A stretch of 64,000 nucleotides of DNA from Verrucomicrobiota bacterium (GTDB taxonomy: Bacteria > Verrucomicrobiota > Verrucomicrobiia > Chthoniobacterales > UBA10450), in contig QHNH01000013.1 in NCBI GenBank assembly GCA_003218375.1, forward strand, positions 62,001-126,000, written 5' to 3'. Of the stretch, positions 4,859-26,157 are shown piece by piece. Each line of letters opens with the position of its first letter. The stretch's first letter is position 1. The position numbers and the translations under genes were made by a program. The notes under the pieces were generated by a model. That model was not told where the DNA came from, made no database searches, and saw nothing but the letters and a program-made list of their open reading frames with translations.

Positions 4859-6283
4859 ATGGTTGGCGAATACATCGAATCTTACGTCCCGGCCCGGCTC
4901 GACCGGATGCCGTGGGGCCGATGGCATTGGCTCATCGTCGGCGCGCTCGGCGCGACCTGGATTCTTGACGGACTCGAAGTCACGCTGGCCGGTTCGCTCG
5001 GCGGTATCCTGACGCATCGCGAGACGCTCGGCCTGACCGATGCGCAAGTCGGCGCCAGTGCTACTTTCTATCTCGCCGGTGCCGTGCTCGGTGCGCTTCT
5101 CTTCGGATACGGTACCGATCGGCTGGGCCGAAAGAAATTATTCTTCATCACAGTCGCGGTCTACTTGGCGGCCACGGCGCTCACAGCATTTTCCTGGAGC
5201 TTCGCGAGCTACGCTTTCTTCCGTGCCCTCACTGGCGCTGGCATCGGCGGCGAATACGCCGCGATCAATTCCGCGATCGACGAGCTGATCCCCGCGCGCG
5301 TCCGCGGTCGGGTGGATCTGATGATCAACGGCTCCTATTGGGTCGGCGCCGCCATGGGTTCCGGCGCAACGATCATTCTCCTCAATCCGCATTACCTTCC
5401 GATCTGGCTCGGCTGGCGTCTCGCCTTCGGCATCGGGGCCACGCTGGGTCTCGTCGTCATTTTCTTTCGCCGATGGATTCCAGAAAGCCCGCGCTGGCTT
5501 CTCATTCACGGCCGTCCCGCGGAGGCGGAACGCATTCTCGATGATGTGGAACGGTCCGTCGCCGCGCACGCGCTGCTTCCGCATGACGCGCCGCCAACGC
5601 GCGTCCGAACTCGCACGCATACGCCTTGGCGCCAGATTTGGAACACGATCGTGCACGAACATCGACGCCGCTCGCTTCTCGGTTTCGTTCTCATGCTCAC
5701 GCAGGCGTTTTTCTACAACGCCATCTTCTTCACCTACGGCCTCGTCCTGATGCGGTTCTACGATGTCCCCGCGCAAAACGTCGGAGGTTACCTGCTGCCG
5801 TTCGCGCTCGGAAACGTTCTTGGTCCGATCGTCCTCGGTCATCTCTTCGACACCGTCGGCCGCCGGAAAATGATCACCACGACCTATGCGATCGCCGGTC
5901 TGCTGTTGGCCGCGACCGGCTGGCTTTTCCACGCCGGCATGCTGACCGCCCAAACCCAGACGATCGCCTGGATGATCATCTTCTTCGTCGCGTCCGCCGC
6001 GGCCAGCTCAGCCTACCTGACCGTGAGCGAAATTTTCCCACTCGAAATCCGCGCCCTCGCGATCGCGATCTTCTACGCCTTCGGAACCCTGGCCGGCGGC
6101 GTCGGCGCCCCGATCCTCTTCGGTTGGATCATCGGCACCGGCTCGAGAACTGCATTGCTCGCCGGCTATCTCGTCGGCGCCGCCCTCATGGTTTTCGGTG
6201 CCGTTGTCGAAGCCTTCATCGGCGTTGATGCCGAGCGAAAACCCCTCGAGCACGTCGCCACGCCGTTGTCCTGCAAGCTGTAG
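4859..6283 (+). CDS. MFS transporter, metabolite:H+ symporter type
   Basis: A 474-aa, 12-helix major facilitator protein of the sugar/aromatic-acid porter type. Evidence includes the loop 2-3 signature GYGTDRLGRKK (about residues 83-93), RALTGAGIGGEYAAINSAI in helix 4, RRWIPESPRWLL before the central loop, and a second GxxxDxxGRRK repeat (HLFDTVGRRK). The substrate cannot be told from the sequence; carboxylates or aromatic acids are plausible. The TAG stop lies in a GTAGCCGCG palindrome arm. A diverged copy of its last ~84 codons follows at 6555-6810. Confidence 0.9.
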   Translation: MVGEYIESYVPARLDRMPWGRWHWLIVGALGATWILDGLEVTLAGSLGGILTHRETLGLTDAQVGASATFYLAGAVLGALLFGYGTDRLGRKKLFFITVAVYLAATALTAFSWSFASYAFFRALTGAGIGGEYAAINSAIDELIPARVRGRVDLMINGSYWVGAAMGSGATIILLNPHYLPIWLGWRLAFGIGATLGLVVIFFRRWIPESPRWLLIHGRPAEAERILDDVERSVAAHALLPHDAPPTRVRTRTHTPWRQIWNTIVHEHRRRSLLGFVLMLTQAFFYNAIFFTYGLVLMRFYDVPAQNVGGYLLPFALGNVLGPIVLGHLFDTVGRRKMITTTYAIAGLLLAATGWLFHAGMLTAQTQTIAWMIIFFVASAAASSAYLTVSEIFPLEIRALAIAIFYAFGTLAGGVGAPILFGWIIGTGSRTALLAGYLVGAALMVFGAVVEAFIGVDAERKPLEHVATPLSCKL

Positions 6284-6390
6284 CCGCGATCGTCGTTCGC
6301 GGCCGCGCTGCAGCGACGGTCTCGCACTTGTGGGATAGCCGTGCCGAAACCAGAAGGGCCTCGACGTAGCGACGCCTATTCGCCTCCAAA

Positions 6391-6415
6391 ACTCGACCGC
6401 TTAAAGCGGTCGAGT
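6391..6415. repeat. Perfect short palindrome in the MFS downstream gap
   Basis: ACTCGACCGC / GCGGTCGAGT arms around a TTAAA centre give a strong hairpin. No U-tract follows, so a Rho-independent terminator is not claimed. The gap 6284-6554 otherwise holds only fragments of other palindromes and no convincing gene. Confidence 0.6.
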
Positions 6416-6554
6416 CTCTGAAGGCTGGGATTGGAAACTCCCGAAACCTCCGCGAAGTCATCGCGCTGCTTTTCGGGCAGCGAAGATCAGCAGCATCCAC
6501 GCTCGACCGATTTGACCAATCGAGTTTTCGCCGACCGGTATGCGGAATTCCGTT

Positions 6555-6810
6555 CGAAATTTTCCTGCTCGAGATTCGCGCTTTGGCGATCGCGCTTTTC
6601 TACGCCTTCGTAACTCTCGCTGGCGGCGTCGGTGCACCGATCCTCTTCGGCTCGATCATCGGCACCGGCTCGAGAACCGCATTGCTCGCCGGCTATCTCG
6701 TCGGCGCCGCCCTCATGATTCTGGGCGCCATCGTCGAAGCCTGGATCGGTGTCGACGCCGAACGAAAATCCCTCGAGCACGTCGCCACGCCGCTCTCCTG
6801 CCGCGAATGA
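6555..6810 (+). pseudogene. Duplicated 3' fragment of the upstream MFS gene
   Basis: The sequence repeats the last ~84 codons of the MFS gene: TLAGGVGAPILFG(S/W)IIGTGSR and VGAALMxxGAxVEA(W/F)IGVDAER, and so on to the stop. The two differ mainly at third positions, plus a few conservative changes such as K/P and W/F. No N-terminal part or start context is present. An ATG-initiated 75-codon frame from 6583 survives, but it would encode only two helices. It is probably the remnant of a tandem duplication that lost its 5' part. Conservative differences suggest it stayed in selection or gene conversion for some time. Confidence 0.85.
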
Positions 6811-7678: not shown

Positions 7679-9289
7679 ATGAAGACGGATGTGATCGATC
7701 CGGCAGTGGCTTCGCAACCGGCGCCATCGGTGCCCGATCCGAAAGCCCCAATTCCGCGGCAAATCCGCTACATCATCGGGAACGAAGGGTGCGAGCGGTT
7801 CAGCTTTTATGGGATGCGCAACATCCTGACGGTGTTCCTGACCACGTCGCTGCTCATGTATCTGCCGGAAGCGGAGCGGGGGAGCGCGGCGAAGGAGGTC
7901 TTCCACACGTTCGTCATCGGCGTTTATTTTTTTCCGCTGCTCGGCGGATGGATCGCGGACCGGTTCTTTGGGAAATACAACACGATCTTCTGGCTCAGCC
8001 TGGTTTATTGTCTTGGGCAAGCCTGCCTCGCATTGTTCGTCACGAACCGGCTCGGGTTTTACGTCGGGCTGTCGCTGATCGCGCTCGGATCGGGCGGGAT
8101 CAAGCCATGCGTGTCGGCGTTCGTGGGCGATCAGTTCGACCAGACGAACAAGCATCGGGCGAAGGTCGTCTTTGACGCTTTTTACTGGATCATCAACTTC
8201 GGCTCGCTGTTCGCGTCGGGGCTAATGCCGATCTTCCTGCGGAGCTTCGGACCGCGCATCGCGTTCGGAATTCCGGGCGCGCTCATGTTCGTCTCGACGT
8301 TCATCCTGTGGATCGCGCGCCAGCAGTACGTGATGCTGCCGCCCACGCCGCCTGATCCGCATTCCTTCTTCAACGTGTCCCGGAGTGCCCTCATGTCGGG
8401 CACGCGCGGGCGCGTTCTGGCAATCATGGGCGCGGCGGCCGCGATCGGGTCGTTCCTGCTCATGCCGAAATTCGGGTTCGTGATCGCCGCCTGCCTCGCG
8501 CTCGTCGCGGTGATCGGATTCGGCGGCACCGGCGTCTGGATCCAACTGGACGCGGTGCGCGGGAAACATCCAGAGGAAGCGATCAATGGTGTTCGCTCGG
8601 TGCTGCGGGTGCTGGTGCTTTTCGCGCTGGTCACGCCGTTCTGGTCATTGTTCGATCAAAAGGCGTCGACCTGGGTCCTCCAGGCAGATGGGATGACGAA
8701 GCCGAGCTGGTTCCAGTCGTCACAGATGCAGGCGCTCAATCCGGCGCTGGTGATGTTGCTCATTCCCTTCAACAACCTCGTGCTTTATCCCGCGTTGCGA
8801 CGACGAGGTTACGAACCGACAGCGCTGCGGCGAATGACGGCGGGGATCGCGTTTGCCGGAATGTCGTGGATCGTAGTGGGGGCGATGCAGATGGTGCTCA
8901 ACGGCGGCAACGCATTCTCGATCGCCTGGCAGATTCTGCCCTACACGCTGCTTACCCTCGGTGAAGTGCTCGTCTCCGCGACCGGCCTCGAGTTCGCCTA
9001 TAGCCAGGCGCCGCTGGCGATGAAGAGCGCGATCATGGCCTTTTGGAGTTTGTCAGTGACGATCGGCAATCTCTGGGTGCTGGTGGTGAATGCCGGCGTG
9101 AAGAACGACCGGGTCATTGGGTTCATCAAATCGAGCGGGGTCGAGATCACCGCGTTCCAGATGTTTTTCTTCGCGGTGTTCGCGTTTGCCGGGCGTGTAA
9201 ACGGAACCGGCTGGCGTGAGCTCGCTGGAATTGAGGCAGAAGGATTCGACGTGAATCATGCCGGCGTCGAAATCGGCGTGAACTTTTAG
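7679..9289 (+). CDS. POT/PTR2 family proton-dependent oligopeptide transporter
   Basis: Proton-coupled di/tripeptide symporter, 536 aa from the ATG at 7679. Family signatures are GNEGCERFSFYGMR (helix 1 ExxERFxYY-type proton site), GGWIADRFFGKYNTI (loop 2-3) and FYWIINFGSLFAS (PTR2 signature 2). The last ~33 residues after FAVFAFAG turn hydrophilic and are the antisense of thpR, so the normal final helix and tail appear to be missing. It overlaps the convergent thpR gene by 237 nt. The family call is secure; the C terminus is odd and may reflect a deletion that joined the two genes. Confidence 0.92.
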   Translation: MKTDVIDPAVASQPAPSVPDPKAPIPRQIRYIIGNEGCERFSFYGMRNILTVFLTTSLLMYLPEAERGSAAKEVFHTFVIGVYFFPLLGGWIADRFFGKYNTIFWLSLVYCLGQACLALFVTNRLGFYVGLSLIALGSGGIKPCVSAFVGDQFDQTNKHRAKVVFDAFYWIINFGSLFASGLMPIFLRSFGPRIAFGIPGALMFVSTFILWIARQQYVMLPPTPPDPHSFFNVSRSALMSGTRGRVLAIMGAAAAIGSFLLMPKFGFVIAACLALVAVIGFGGTGVWIQLDAVRGKHPEEAINGVRSVLRVLVLFALVTPFWSLFDQKASTWVLQADGMTKPSWFQSSQMQALNPALVMLLIPFNNLVLYPALRRRGYEPTALRRMTAGIAFAGMSWIVVGAMQMVLNGGNAFSIAWQILPYTLLTLGEVLVSATGLEFAYSQAPLAMKSAIMAFWSLSVTIGNLWVLVVNAGVKNDRVIGFIKSSGVEITAFQMFFFAVFAFAGRVNGTGWRELAGIEAEGFDVNHAGVEIGVNF

Positions 9290-9712
9290 GAAGGGTCGGA
9301 TCGTTTGCGACGAGACGTCCCGGCAACGCGCGAGGGTGATGTGAGGATGGAATGCGCGCAGATCTGGCTCGAGACCGGCGGCGAGGACGGCTTCCTGGAC
9401 GCGCTTGTGCAATTGAAACAAATGCGGATGGCCGGTGCCGACACCGATCCAGACGATCTTCGGCCAGCCTTTGCTCGGGAAAGTTCCAAGACCGACGAGC
9501 GGCAGGAAGAACGATTTCCAGGAAATCGCGCGCAGCTTTTCCGTCAAGCTCTCCTGAGTTTCGCTCGAAACATTTCCGAGGAAGCTAAGCGTCAAATGCA
9601 TTTGCTGCGGCTCGAGCCAGCGTACGCCGCGCAGACGCGGATTCAATTCGGCGAGACGTTGCCGAACAGATTCGGGAAGCTCGATGGAAACGAAGAGTCG
9701 TTTCGCGCTCAT
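9053..9712 (-). CDS. thpR: RNA 2',3'-cyclic phosphodiesterase (2H family), abnormal C terminus
   Basis: LigT/ThpR 2H phosphoesterase that opens 2',3'-cyclic phosphates on RNA ends. Both catalytic HxT motifs are present: HLTL (His39-Thr41) and HITL (His124-Thr126). The start MSAKRLFVSIELPE at 9712 matches the family; upstream codons derive from a palindrome. After SVYTP (about residue 177) the sequence is no longer ThpR-like, and ~40 residues are the complement of the POT transporter gene. At 219 aa it is longer than the usual ~180. The core is intact, so activity is plausible. Confidence 0.88.
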   Translation of the reverse strand: MSAKRLFVSIELPESVRQRLAELNPRLRGVRWLEPQQMHLTLSFLGNVSSETQESLTEKLRAISWKSFFLPLVGLGTFPSKGWPKIVWIGVGTGHPHLFQLHKRVQEAVLAAGLEPDLRAFHPHITLARCRDVSSQTIRPFLKVHADFDAGMIHVESFCLNSSELTPAGSVYTPGKREHREEKHLERGDLDPARFDEPNDPVVLHAGIHHQHPEIADRH

Positions 9713-9727
9713 CGAATCTGATCTTAT

Positions 9728-9800
9728 CGGAGGGACGTGCTTCTGCATGTCCGCGTTGTTGGGTGATGAAATTTGGGACGCGCAGAAGCACGTCCCTCCG
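9728..9800. repeat. GGAGGGACG-family intergenic palindrome
   Basis: Perfect 19-bp arms CGGAGGGACGTGCTTCTGC (9728-9746) and its complement (9782-9800). It separates the minus-strand thpR and MFS genes. It is nearly identical in arm sequence to the element at 11074-11164. Confidence 0.9.
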
Positions 9801-21807: not shown

Positions 21808-21923
21808 CTGGGGAGCGCACGCGCCTCGCGTGCTGGTTTCGGCGTCTCGCCGAAACAGGCTTCCAGGAAAGTTCGCGCCGGCGAGACGCCATCGCCAACG
21901 CGCGAGACGCGCGCGCTACCCAG
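21808..21923. repeat. Large CTGGGTAGCGCG-family palindrome
   Basis: Outer arms CTGGGGAGCGCACGCG / CGCGCGCGCTACCCAG with inner modules GGCGTCTCGCCGAAAC and GGCGAGACGCC. It lies between the convergent TPR and Hsp70 genes and provides the TAG stop of the Hsp70 gene. It is closely related to the element starting at 25562. Confidence 0.8.
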
Positions 21924-23703
21924 GCCCAGACTGCATCGCCTTTTGCACGAGCACAGCCGCCAGATTCTGCGTCGCCTCATCGAGCGCGTTGTTCGCGGCC
22001 TGAAGTTTTCGCGCATCATGTGTCGCCAGCGAATCGCGGACCTGCGTGGCCGCGCCTAGGATCCTCTCCTTCTCCGCCGCATCGATCGTATCCCCGATCT
22101 GCGCGAATGCTGCATCCACCGCGCTCAGCATTTCCTCGGCTTTGAGTTTCGTCTCCGTCCAAACGCGTTCGCTCATGTCGTCGAAGGCGTGCTCGAGCGA
22201 TTCGGAGATCATCGCTTCGACCGCTTCATCGGAAACATCTACCGCACTGTTGATCTCCACTACTTTTTCCGCGCCCGTTTTCGTGTCGCGCGCCAGCACG
22301 TGCAGGATCCCGTTCGCATCGATCTCGAATTGCACGCCGACGCGCGCCACGCCTTTGGGCGCCGGTTCAAACTCGATCTCGAACTGGCCGAGCGGCCAGT
22401 TGTCCCGCGCCATTTCGCGCTCGCCCTGCAGCACCTTGATCGACATCGACCGTTGCTGGTTCACCGCGGTCGTAAACATTTCGCCCGCCTTGATCGGGAT
22501 CGTCGAGTTCCGCGGAATGATCACATTCATCAGCCCGCCGAAAGTCTCGATGCCTAACGACAACGGCGTCACATCCAGCAGGACCACGTCCCGGACCGCG
22601 CCGGAAAGAATTCCCGCCTGGATCGTTGCGCCGATCGCGACCGCCTCGTCGGGGTTTTGCGACGTGTTTGGCTCTCGGCCGAAAATCTCCGCGACGAGTG
22701 TCCGCACTAGCGGCATTCGCGTCATCCCGCCCACCAGAATTACTTCATCCAGATCGGAAGGTTCGAGTTTCGCGTCAGCCAGCGAACGGCGGCAATGCGC
22801 GCGCGTCTGCTCGATGATCGGCCGGCTCAGTCGCTCCAGCTCTGTGCGGGTCAGCTCAGCGGAAAAATTTTGCCCGCCTTCGAGAAACGGAATTTCGATC
22901 GTTACGCTCATCTCAACGGAGAGTCGATGTTTCGCATCAACGGCCGCCTCGCGCAGGCGCGCGATGCTTTCGGGTTTATCCGCCGGAAAACCTTTCGCGC
23001 GGAGATGCGCCATGATCGCGTTATCGATGTCGTCGCCGCCGAGCCGCGTGTTCCCATTCGTCGAGAGGACTTCAAACACGCCGTGGTTCAGTTCGAGAAT
23101 CGAGATGTCGAACGTGCCTCCGCCCAGGTCGAAGACGGCGATCTTCGAATGGCCCTCGAGCTTGTCGAGCCCGTAAGCGAGCGCCGCCGCGGTCGGCTCG
23201 TTGACGATGCGCTCGACGGTAAATCCAGCCAGCTCGCCCGCGCGCTTGGTAGCGCTGCGTTGCGCATCGTTGAAATACGCCGGCACCGTGATCACCGCGC
23301 GCGAGACCGGATGTCCGAGCGCCGCTTCGGCGTCGGCCTTCAGCTTTCCCAGAATGAGCGCGGAAATTTCCTCGGGTGAATGCGATTTACCGCGCGCCGC
23401 AATGCGGAGAGCTTTACCGCTCTTCCGTTCGAGCTGGTAAGAAACGTCCGCATCGCTCTCACGCAGGTCTTCGCCGCGCAGACCCATGAAGCGCTTGATG
23501 GAATAAATCGTCTGCGCCGGCTTGAGCGCGCGCATTCGCGTCGCCGGTTGTCCTACGAGCGGAGTTCCGTCCGACGAGAAATGGACGACGGACGGCGTCA
23601 ACCGCTCGCCGTTCTTGTCTGCGATCAGGATGGGAAACCCGGCGTCCATCACTCCGATGAGCGAGTTGGTCGTTCCAAGATCGATCCCGACAATTTCATT
23701 CAT
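21916..23703 (-). CDS. Hsp70/DnaK-family chaperone, short form
   Basis: ATP-driven chaperone of 595 aa, about 40 shorter than canonical DnaK. Signatures are GIDLGTTNS (6-14), VFDLGGGTFDIS (190-201) and VILVGGMTRMPLV. The substrate-binding domain starts at DVTPLSLGIETFGG. The helical lid is shortened and ends without the usual disordered Gly-rich tail. It may be a secondary Hsp70 or HscA-like rather than the main DnaK, since no grpE, dnaJ or isc genes are adjacent. The start MNEIVGIDLG at 23703 was preferred over an extension running into a palindrome. It lies downstream of rtcB on the same strand. Confidence 0.9.
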   Translation of the reverse strand: MNEIVGIDLGTTNSLIGVMDAGFPILIADKNGERLTPSVVHFSSDGTPLVGQPATRMRALKPAQTIYSIKRFMGLRGEDLRESDADVSYQLERKSGKALRIAARGKSHSPEEISALILGKLKADAEAALGHPVSRAVITVPAYFNDAQRSATKRAGELAGFTVERIVNEPTAAALAYGLDKLEGHSKIAVFDLGGGTFDISILELNHGVFEVLSTNGNTRLGGDDIDNAIMAHLRAKGFPADKPESIARLREAAVDAKHRLSVEMSVTIEIPFLEGGQNFSAELTRTELERLSRPIIEQTRAHCRRSLADAKLEPSDLDEVILVGGMTRMPLVRTLVAEIFGREPNTSQNPDEAVAIGATIQAGILSGAVRDVVLLDVTPLSLGIETFGGLMNVIIPRNSTIPIKAGEMFTTAVNQQRSMSIKVLQGEREMARDNWPLGQFEIEFEPAPKGVARVGVQFEIDANGILHVLARDTKTGAEKVVEINSAVDVSDEAVEAMISESLEHAFDDMSERVWTETKLKAEEMLSAVDAAFAQIGDTIDAAEKERILGAATQVRDSLATHDARKLQAANNALDEATQNLAAVLVQKAMQSGPG

Positions 23704-23713
23704 GCCCGCAAAC

Positions 23714-23801
23714 TGTAGCGGCGGTCTATGACCGTCGCACTTTGAGTTTGGCGAAGTCGGCCGGATCGGAAATAGTCCGGCGGTCACAGACCGCCGCTAC
23801 A
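23714..23801. repeat. GTAGCGGCGGTCT palindrome
   Basis: Arms TGTAGCGGCGGTCT (23714-23727) and AGACCGCCGCTACA (23788-23801), with inner GACCGTCGCACT and AGTCCGGCGGTC pairing. It separates rtcB from the Hsp70 gene. Confidence 0.85.
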
Positions 23802-23803
23802 AA

Positions 23804-24973
23804 TCAATCCTTGTATGGATCGACAATATCTTTGCCCGCCATCGCGACGCCGAGTGGCGTGAGGGTGTGGAGGATCCGGATCGTGCCGGCGTGCGCGGCC
23901 AGGACCTCCGGCAATCGTCGATACGCCTGGGGCGCTTCGTCCAGATCACCGCCGCGCAGGACCACGTTTTTGTCGGCGATCCATTTCATCATTTCGTCAT
24001 GCCTCACGAGTCCATCCTGCCGGATCCGTTTTCCACCGATCTTCACAAACTTTCCCTTCGCCGCCGTGCGCGACATGATCCGGCCGGCGCCGTGGACCGT
24101 TGAGAAAAGTGCGTCGCGCGAAGTTGCCGAATCGATGCCTTCGATGATCACGGCATCGTCGCCCATGCTTCCGCCGACGAAACCTTTCTGACCCGGGAAC
24201 GCGGGCGTGGCGCCCTTGCGCACGACCCAATATTGCCGGCCGTCGTGTTCCTCGCGCCAGGCGAAGTTGTGATGGTTGTGGACTTCCTCGATTGTGTTGG
24301 CGCGGAGAATCCCGCGCACGACATGGCGTGCGACCGCTTCGCGCCCGGCATAAGCGTAGCGCCCAGCGAGCGTCATCGCCGCGATGTAATCTTCGCCCAG
24401 CGGCGACGCTTCCGAGACGACAGTCGGTGGAACATCCATCCCGTCCTTGCCGCCGGCCGCCTTCAGAAAATGCGTGGCGGTCTTATGCCCGAGCCCGCGC
24501 GAGCCGAAATGGACACCGACCCAAATCCGATCGGATTCATCCGCGAAAATATCGACGTAATGATTTCCGCCGCCGACGGTACCGAGCTGGCTGGCCGCGC
24601 TCTGTTTCAACTCGCGCATGGGCGACAACTGCCACGCCGGATCGTCGAAGAGCTCGTGCTCGATCCTCGTCTTGCTGCTTTGCCCGATCCCGAATGAAAC
24701 GTCACGCACGACGTCATTCATGATTTCTTCCATGGCCGGAGCAACTTGATCGCGGGTTACATCGGTCCGAATGGCGAGATTGCCGCAGGCGATATCGAAC
24801 CCGACCCCGGAGAGCGAAATCTTGTCGGTGTAAGCCACCACGCCACCGATCGGCTGGGCGTAGCCTTTGTGCCCGTCGGCGCACAACACGGCGCGCTCTC
24901 CACCGGCCGCGACGCAGCGTTCGATCTGCGCGATCGTCGCTTCGTCGTGCTCGCCGAAGATTTTGGTTTTCAT
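23804..24973 (-). CDS. rtcB: RNA-splicing ligase RtcB
   Basis: GTP- and Mn-dependent ligase that joins RNA 3'-phosphate or 2',3'-cyclic phosphate ends to 5'-OH ends. Metal-site motifs are ADGHKGYAQPIGG, SGVGFDIACGN (Asp60, Cys63), GGGNHYVD (His138) and VGVHFGSRG (His155). The guanylated His is His294 in VHGAGRIMSRT. The 389 aa is typical of the short bacterial form. The start ATG 24973 overlaps the stop of the 2H phosphoesterase gene by 4 nt, giving a coupled RNA-repair pair. Confidence 0.95.
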   Translation of the reverse strand: MKTKIFGEHDEATIAQIERCVAAGGERAVLCADGHKGYAQPIGGVVAYTDKISLSGVGFDIACGNLAIRTDVTRDQVAPAMEEIMNDVVRDVSFGIGQSSKTRIEHELFDDPAWQLSPMRELKQSAASQLGTVGGGNHYVDIFADESDRIWVGVHFGSRGLGHKTATHFLKAAGGKDGMDVPPTVVSEASPLGEDYIAAMTLAGRYAYAGREAVARHVVRGILRANTIEEVHNHHNFAWREEHDGRQYWVVRKGATPAFPGQKGFVGGSMGDDAVIIEGIDSATSRDALFSTVHGAGRIMSRTAAKGKFVKIGGKRIRQDGLVRHDEMMKWIADKNVVLRGGDLDEAPQAYRRLPEVLAAHAGTIRILHTLTPLGVAMAGKDIVDPYKD

Positions 24974-25503
24974 CCGGTAATCCGATGCGTGGCCACCACT
25001 CTCCACGCTTCCACATCCGCGCGCGATTCGATCTTCGCCGGGCTGATCACCGCTTTCGCCGAATCGAAGCGGACTTTATCAAACGGGAGGCGAAGCGAAG
25101 CGGCCAGGTCGCGTTTCGTTTCTCGGTCCATCGTCTTGTAGATCAAACTGAGATGAGGGTTCAGTTGATAATCGTTTTGAGCGGTCGAAGCGCGTCGCAA
25201 ATCCGAACTTAAGCGCGCCAGATCTTCGTCCGGCTCAAATTGCACGAAAACGGTTTTCGTGAATTTGTCCGAATGATCGAGGCCGCGAACCGAAAGGTGA
25301 CAGGATTGGCGATTTTTCACGACCTGCTCGAGAACAGCGCTCGGATTTTCATTCGCGGCGTCGGTTACATATAGCGTGACGTGCGGCTCAAAGAATGGAG
25401 CGTTAAACTTCTCCGCCAGATTGCATATTAGCATGGCGAAATGGTTTCGCGCCGGCTCGGCTGGACAAAGCCAGTAGGTAACGATTGTCTTTTCCGCGAC
25501 CAT
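24970..25503 (-). CDS. 2H phosphoesterase, cyclic-phosphodiesterase type
   Basis: A 177-aa enzyme with the two HxT/S motifs of the 2H superfamily: PHVTLYV (His41, Thr43) and PHLSLIYK (His117, Ser119). It is closer to plant/yeast CPDases than to ThpR. Such enzymes hydrolyse 2',3'-cyclic phosphates on nucleotides or RNA. Translational overlap with rtcB strongly suggests joint work on broken RNA ends, one remodelling the end and the other sealing it. The start at 25503 (MVAEKTIVTYWL) was chosen over a 33-codon extension through palindromic sequence. Confidence 0.85.
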   Translation of the reverse strand: MVAEKTIVTYWLCPAEPARNHFAMLICNLAEKFNAPFFEPHVTLYVTDAANENPSAVLEQVVKNRQSCHLSVRGLDHSDKFTKTVFVQFEPDEDLARLSSDLRRASTAQNDYQLNPHLSLIYKTMDRETKRDLAASLRLPFDKVRFDSAKAVISPAKIESRADVEAWRVVATHRITG

Positions 25504-25561
25504 TCGAGGAATGTCGAATAAGCATCGGGTTGCAACAAGGAGGAGAGGTTGCTGCCTTGTG

Positions 25562-25748
25562 CTGGGTAGCGCGGGCGTCTCGCGCGTTGATGACGGCGTC
25601 ACGCCGGCCTGGACTTTCCTTCACGATACATTGCGGGTTCGGCTGCGGACTAAGGAAAGAATGTTTTGGCGAGCCGCCAAAACCAGCACGCGAGACGCGC
25701 GCGCTACCCAGAACCGAAATCGGCGGTTTGGAAACCGCCGCTCCTTGG
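25562..25748. repeat. Composite palindromic region upstream of the DUF2237 gene
   Basis: A large CTGGGTAGCGCG...CGCGCTACCCAG inverted repeat (25562-25711) is followed directly by CGGCGGTTTGGAAACCGCCG plus CTCCTTGG (25721-25748). The second unit recurs at 45670-45697. The composite fills the divergent promoter region between the RNA-repair pair and the DUF2237 gene. Confidence 0.8.
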
Positions 25749-25760
25749 CTACTGTGCGCC

Positions 25761-26123
25761 ATGGTCACGAACGTTCTTGGCACTGAGCTGCGCTGCTGTT
25801 GCCGCGACCCGATAACGGGATTTTATCGCGATGGCTATTGCCGGACCGGGGCGGACGATATCGGGCTGCACACGGTTTGCGTGGAAGTCACTGAGGAATT
25901 CCTCGATTTCTCCGTCCTCGATGGGAACGATCTCGTGACGCCCATGCCGCAATGGGGTTTTCCCGGCCTCAAACCGGGAGATCGTTGGTGCGTCTGCGTT
26001 ACGCGATGGAAAGCCGCGCTCGACCACGGCCGCGCCGCGCCCATCGATCTTGAAGCAACGCATTCCTCGGTGCTTGAGTTCGTAGATCTCGAAGATCTCA
26101 AAGCGCACGCCGTGAAGGAATGA
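25761..26123 (+). CDS. DUF2237 family protein
   Basis: A 120-aa protein clearly matching DUF2237: NVLGTELRCCCRDPITGFYR, DIGLHTVCVEVTEEFLDFS, GNDLVTPMPQWGFPGLKPGD and RWCVCVTRW, ending with VDLEDLKAHAVKE. The function of the family is not established; conserved Cys and Asp suggest metal binding. The start at 25761 follows the palindromic region; a longer frame upstream is only palindrome sequence. Confidence 0.9.
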   Translation: MVTNVLGTELRCCCRDPITGFYRDGYCRTGADDIGLHTVCVEVTEEFLDFSVLDGNDLVTPMPQWGFPGLKPGDRWCVCVTRWKAALDHGRAAPIDLEATHSSVLEFVDLEDLKAHAVKE

Positions 26124-26157
26124 CGGCGCTAGGTACCCGATAACTGTTCCCATGCGG

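Follow-up and report, generated by a model that had tools for sequence, protein, structure and literature searches.

Bacterial RtcB ligases are known from operons with RtcA, archease, PrfH, and Ro proteins, with TROVE/Ro60 and RlaP known as companions of RNA repair, and RNA ends that carry a 2′-phosphate (2′-P) are not used by RtcB. In the E. coli rtcBA operon, RtcB is encoded with an enzyme that sets RNA 3′-end chemistry, the RNA 3′-phosphate cyclase RtcA. Archease and RtcB likewise form a two-gene unit, and in the RtcB2-PrfH operon a short RtcB is joined to a partner gene. Plant and fungal tRNA ligases, which combine a CPD domain with a kinase and an ATP ligase and act with Tpt1, tie 2H CPD activity to an RNA ligase. 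In animals, the 2H cyclic phosphodiesterase CNP acts on the same 2′,3′-cyclic phosphate (2′,3′>P) ends as RTCB, with the 2′-P ends made by CNP leading to less RTCB-dependent splicing, and RTCA counteracting this effect (PMC10630183; PMC13247085).

The locus described here lies in a 64,000-nucleotide stretch (the window) of a 3.96-Mb draft metagenome-assembled genome (MAG) of the Chthoniobacterales (Verrucomicrobiota), whose nearest named relatives in our tree are Chthoniobacterales/“Spartobacteria” MAGs from soil and palsa. It encodes a 2H phosphodiesterase of the plant cyclic phosphodiesterase (CPDase) type in overlap with a short RtcB, and differs from each of the systems above. In contrast to E. 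coli rtcBA, the partner is a 2H phosphodiesterase with a likely opposite effect, and RtcA is absent from the bacterial family concerned. Archease (PF01951) is absent from the window genome and its genus, occurring only in genus g5 together with a long RtcB. Unlike RtcB2, the window RtcB falls far below the RtcB2 model cut-offs, and prfH is absent from the unit. CNP is structurally distant from the window 2H protein (Z ~7) and unlinked to RTCB, with RTCA available to animals for reversal, whereas the plant and fungal ligases require the 2′-P, which Tpt1 then removes; the window instead has RtcB, and Tpt1 is absent. The neighbourhoods that contain TROVE/Ro60 or RlaP share the same short RtcB subfamily (L102, L142, and L248), however neither gene adjoins the window rtcB. 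Each of the enzyme families is known; the literature searched, which did not extend to the principal RNA-repair operon survey of Burroughs and Aravind (2016), yielded neither an overlapping CPDase-type 2H and RtcB unit that is likely ancestral to a family of bacteria, nor any report of a 2H phosphodiesterase as the overlapping-gene partner of RtcB.

Organisation of the locus

The gene order on the minus strand is 2H, rtcB, and Hsp70 (Table 1). Direct reading of the junction (...CCGGATGAAAACC) bears out the 4-nt overlap reported in the initial annotation, with the letters ATGA serving both the end of 2H and the start of rtcB. Judging from this gene spacing, 2H and rtcB are probably co-transcribed and made together, with translation of rtcB plausibly coupled to that of 2H by re-initiation at the ATGA. 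The initial annotation had also placed a second 2H gene, thpR, at 9053, and a gene of this class is indeed encoded there.

Table 1. Features of the 2H-rtcB locus and related genes, in window coordinates.
Feature	Position	Strand	Details
2H phosphoesterase, plant-CPDase type	25503-24970	minus	177 aa; ATG at 25503, TGA at 24972-24970
RtcB RNA ligase, short subfamily	24973-23804	minus	389 aa; ATG at 24973-24971, stop ends at 23804
ATGA overlap, 2H stop codon/rtcB start codon	24970-24973	minus	4 nt, direct reading
Hsp70/DnaK paralogue	21916-23703	minus	595 aa; PF00012 E=2.5e-192
Intergenic region between divergent 2H and DUF2237	25504-25760		Presumed promoter region; direct reading
DUF2237 gene, divergent neighbour of 2H	25761-26123	plus	PF09996 E=6.7e-53
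Inverted 23-nt hairpin repeat pair between rtcB and Hsp70	23715-23800		Pattern search
Second 2H gene (thpR/LigT class), unlinked	9053-9748	minus	PF02834 (LigT_PEase) E=1.7e-26

A minus-strand open reading frame upstream of 2H (25749-26138) was considered as a fourth gene and rejected as antisense to the plus-strand DUF2237 gene; 2H is therefore the first gene of the unit. DUF2237 itself lies outside the transcript, and synteny shows that it is kept beside 2H even where rtcB is missing. A scan for a sigma-70-like promoter returned none.

The Hsp70 gene, said in the initial annotation to follow on the same strand, does so and belongs to PF00012, however it begins ~100 nt downstream of rtcB, and the window genome has at least two further Hsp70-like genes elsewhere. 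Hsp70 adjoins rtcB in all eight window-genus genomes, and also in G017 and G019, and is absent from the 2H-rtcB locus in genera g6 and g14. It is a possible third gene of the unit, the ~100-nt gap and the hairpin repeat after rtcB making its place on the same transcript uncertain.

Two repeats were observed around these genes. The inverted hairpin repeats between rtcB and Hsp70 read GTAGCGGCGGTCTRTGACCGCCG, with 2 copies recovered in a pattern search where 0 would be expected. The other repeat has inverted arms resembling GTAGCGCGCGCGTCTCGCG, and occurs at 25566-25707 upstream of 2H (arms at 25566-25584 and 25689-25707) and at 21812-21919 just after Hsp70, such that its copies bracket the three genes; four such arms were found against 0.2 expected.

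The 2H and RtcB proteins

The identities of both enzymes given by the initial annotation are upheld by Pfam. The 2H protein matches PF07823 (CPDase, E=2.8e-12, 47.2 bits against a curated cut-off of 21) and also PF13563 (E=2.8e-10), and carries the two H-x-T/S motifs His41-Val-Thr43 and His117-Leu-Ser119. Residues His41, His117, Ser119, and Tyr122 are invariant among 31–36 homologues (both histidines in 36), and the active site is, on this alignment, intact. The closest solved relative by sequence is the Arabidopsis CPDase (1fsi/1jh6, 8e-7), which is also the top structural match (1jh6, Z 20.9, rmsd 3.4 over 174 aligned residues) of a model built by AlphaFold2 with 31 homologues (pLDDT 92.7). 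The next matches are B. subtilis YjcG (Z 15.5), LigT (~14), and human Usb1 (13.7), with AKAP18 (12.7), the signalling phosphodiesterases of the 2H fold that act as Acb1, on cGAMP, or on 2′-5′A (10–11.5), yeast-type Usb1 (8.8–10), and CNP (~7) being remoter. A search of 240 genomes of the phylum for CPDase recovered the Chthoniobacterales family and one other genus only, with RtcB not nearby there. Searches for CPDase-type 2H proteins gave no match in phages, and two matches only, of 24–27% identity, in plasmids.

The window RtcB matches PF01139 (E=2.5e-64, 218.5 bits against a curated cut-off of 27) and PHROG 1075 (tRNA splicing ligase), and is 29% identical to E. coli RtcB over their alignment, in which residues Asp60, Cys63, Asn137, His138, His155, His235, and His294 align with the catalytic residues of the E. 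coli enzyme. We take the metal- and GMP-site roles of these positions, including that of the guanylylated histidine, to be those of E. coli and Pyrococcus RtcB, and the catalytic site is intact as far as the aligned residues indicate. Membership of the RtcB2/PrfH group was rejected, with scores of 99.7 against a cut-off of 271.8 for TIGR03073, and 116.8 against 407 for PRK09588.

Conservation of the pair

Within a set of 61 family genomes, counting RtcB at or above ~65% identity with fragments included, the 2H gene is present in 55, window-type RtcB in 36, and both in 34. The two genes are adjacent in 23 genomes of seven genera (seven in g1, four in g3, one in g5, four in g6, one in g11, one in g13, and five in g14), as counted from match coordinates with the neighbourhoods of representatives checked, and two further genomes at contig ends being undecidable. 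This adjacency exceeds chance. An exact overlap of 4 nt is kept in nine species, comprising seven of the seven window-genus members with both genes and two g3 species, with an overlap of 1 nt in another g3 genome. In g6, g14, and others the spacing is larger, at 9 to 238 nt when taken to the first codon that aligns with the window RtcB. Compared with the window, the other species with the 4-nt overlap have 2H proteins of 39–58% identity and RtcBs of 80–92% identity.

In a quick tree of 145 RtcBs, those of the family form one clade with 98% SH-aLRT (leaf L105, labelled “otherbact”, is family genome G003), and members with adjacent genes occur in both of its main subclades, therefore adjacency is likely to be ancestral to the family. 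This is consistent with synteny, with RtcB phylogeny and synteny together pointing to the pair as the likely ancestral state. The genes on both sides of the pair are also syntenic, some of them on the opposite strand, and adjacency alone is thus weaker evidence than the kept overlap.

The conserved adjacency that the initial annotation proposed to look for in other genomes is therefore real, however it is confined to one family. Among 44 non-family genomes with window-type RtcB, 36 have some 2H gene, and in only one was it found to adjoin rtcB. In this genome, of a PVC bacterium (L119), the two genes (5029-6782) overlap by 4 nt; the 2H gene is of the LigT class, and the rtcB is 63% identical. 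It appears to be a second, independent coupling that involves another class of 2H protein, and, as a single case for which ~0.01 would be expected by chance (a rough figure from 44 genomes with ~1.2 2H genes in ~4000 genes, placed upstream on the same strand), is suggestive. No LigT-rtcB adjacency was present in its relatives among matches from 57 genomes. Open reading frames with 2H motifs in the RtcB flanks of L106, L127, L142, L151, and L088 are not 2H by Pfam.

End chemistry and competition between 2H and RtcB

E. coli LigT converts 2′,3′-cAMP to 2′-AMP (PMC5283653), and the 2H CPD domains of yeast and plants make 2′-P ends (PMC3400036). As CPDase and LigT are the closest relatives of the window 2H protein with known chemistry, and both leave a 2′-P, a 2′-P product is by analogy our best guess. 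It should not be taken as proven, since one 2H enzyme, yeast Usb1, produces a 3′-phosphate (3′-P) (PMC5591277). RtcB itself opens the cyclic phosphate and joins >p or 3′-P ends, with 2′,3′>P preferred over 3′-P (PMC10630183), and hence needs no 2H helper. Furthermore, neither RtcA (PF01137; E. coli positive control detected) nor Tpt1/KptA (positive control working) was found in any of 71 family genomes, so that a 2′-P outcome, if the 2H protein makes it, would be irreversible for RtcB.

These observations lead us to favour, at a probability of roughly 0.4, a reading in which 2H and RtcB are co-expressed competing enzymes, the former acting as a brake on RtcB or as a scavenger of cyclic ends. 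Co-transcription and re-initiation of rtcB at the ATGA would set a fixed 2H:RtcB ratio, with the 2H protein, like its relatives, converting the 2′,3′-cyclic phosphate ends of RNA fragments, nucleotides, or both to 2′-P, and RtcB drawing on the same cyclic ends, or on 3′-P, in sealing tRNA and other cleaved RNAs. Because both would use the same cyclic ends, they would compete for one substrate pool, in which RtcB may prevail at ends with a 5′-OH partner held in position, leaving the 2H protein to clear loose fragments and block unwanted joining. Such competition would resemble that of animal CNP against RTCB, inside one operon. Against the competition model, a brake coupled to its own target would need a selective reason. 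Should the enzymes indeed be competitors, the locus would offer a genetically simple setting in which to study the choice between repair and discard of cleaved RNA, which in animals is now approached mostly via over-expression. We regard as doubtful the further step of an operon-encoded end-fate switch, in which the coupled 2H protein irreversibly commits cyclic ends to 2′-P and so sets the shares of cleaved RNA that are sealed and discarded, a prokaryotic parallel to CNP-RTCB antagonism without RtcA.

Separation of 2H from RtcB

The nearest contender to competition, a tentative reading of slightly lower standing, is that 2H and rtcB are operon neighbours that share no pathway step, the 2H protein being a housekeeping 2′,3′-cyclic phosphodiesterase (acting, for example, on cyclic nucleotides from RNA decay). 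It draws on the greater frequency of 2H than of window-type RtcB in the family, with 21 genomes having 2H without it (12 of g5, five of g10, and four of g4), and the 2H proteins aligned from genomes of this kind keeping both motifs, which argues against the protein serving RtcB alone. The g10 genomes keep 2H and yielded no complete RtcB, one of them showing a fragment; in g4 and g7, rtcB has moved away from 2H, g4 being nested inside one of the main subclades of the family RtcB tree. The confinement of adjacency to one family, with L119 alone among the 44 genomes outside it, also favours unlinked roles, as do the syntenic flanks, which make the conservation partly plain collinearity. Against this stand the exact 4-nt overlap kept in nine species despite fast divergence of 2H, the independent overlap in L119 with a different 2H class, and the action of both enzymes on the same chemical end. 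The persistence of 2H where RtcB has been lost indicates that it has a job of its own too, and is no worse a fit to an unrelated housekeeping role than to competition.

Most of g5 has a long RtcB instead of the short type, and archease, found in 14 of the 71 family genomes, is restricted to g5 and mostly lies within 1–2 kb of the long rtcB; in g5 genomes such as G011, G023, G046, and G060, the short RtcB has seemingly been replaced by long RtcB with archease, with 2H left at the old site. Conversely, the window-genus genome G004 has rtcB and lacks 2H. The rtcB of G003, a sister species, is broken at roughly codon 343 by ~4.2 kb (L066:8125-12287) that hold an IS1-type transposase-like open reading frame and one with an NYN domain, and 2H is intact.

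The initial annotation had end-processing and ligation forming one module; as a single pathway of healing and sealing, this would have the 2H protein opening the cyclic phosphate to 3′-P and handing it over to RtcB. Such a pathway is unlikely. The overlap of the genes, the acceptance of 3′-P by RtcB, and the 3′-P product of yeast Usb1 (PMC5591277) are all in keeping with it, but the 2H protein lies closest in family and fold to the 2′-P makers CPDase and LigT, with Usb1 remoter (Z 13.7 for the human and 8.8–10 for the yeast type, compared with 20.9). Moreover, RtcB opens cyclic ends unaided and favours them over 3′-P (PMC10630183), making the step superfluous, RtcA and Tpt1 are both missing, and 2H persists without window-type RtcB. 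As for the pair of outcomes that the initial annotation considered fatal to its proposal, a 2′-P product, by analogy, is likely, and adjacency is conserved, but narrowly. Least probable of all is that the 2H protein acts on a substrate other than RNA>p, such as Appr>p from Tpt1, 2′-5′ linkages, or cyclic oligonucleotide signals, since, whilst the Arabidopsis CPDase hydrolyses Appr>p (entry titles of 1fsi/1jh6) and Acb1, cGAMP, and 2′-5′A phosphodiesterases share the 2H fold, Tpt1/KptA as the source of Appr>p is missing from all 71 family genomes, and the signalling enzymes are remoter in fold.

The short RtcB subfamily in phages and other bacteria

Phages commonly carry the short RtcB subfamily to which the window protein belongs (IMG/VR contigs, L239-L318), with 214 candidate stretches on viral contigs, the best 80 of which are of 52–70% identity. 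No 2H gene was found beside rtcB in these best 80 of the 214 stretches. Viral and bacterial RtcBs are intermixed in the tree, with at least six label changes forced by strongly supported branches, which makes repeated transfer likely. In another Verrucomicrobia genome (L102, 4417-7865), a TROVE/Ro60 gene lies 9 nt upstream of a window-type rtcB, and an HNH nuclease gene overlaps the end of rtcB by 4 nt. RlaP occurs near window-type RtcB in L142 and in the phage contig L248, and genes for RNA ligase and RlaP flank some of the viral rtcB copies.
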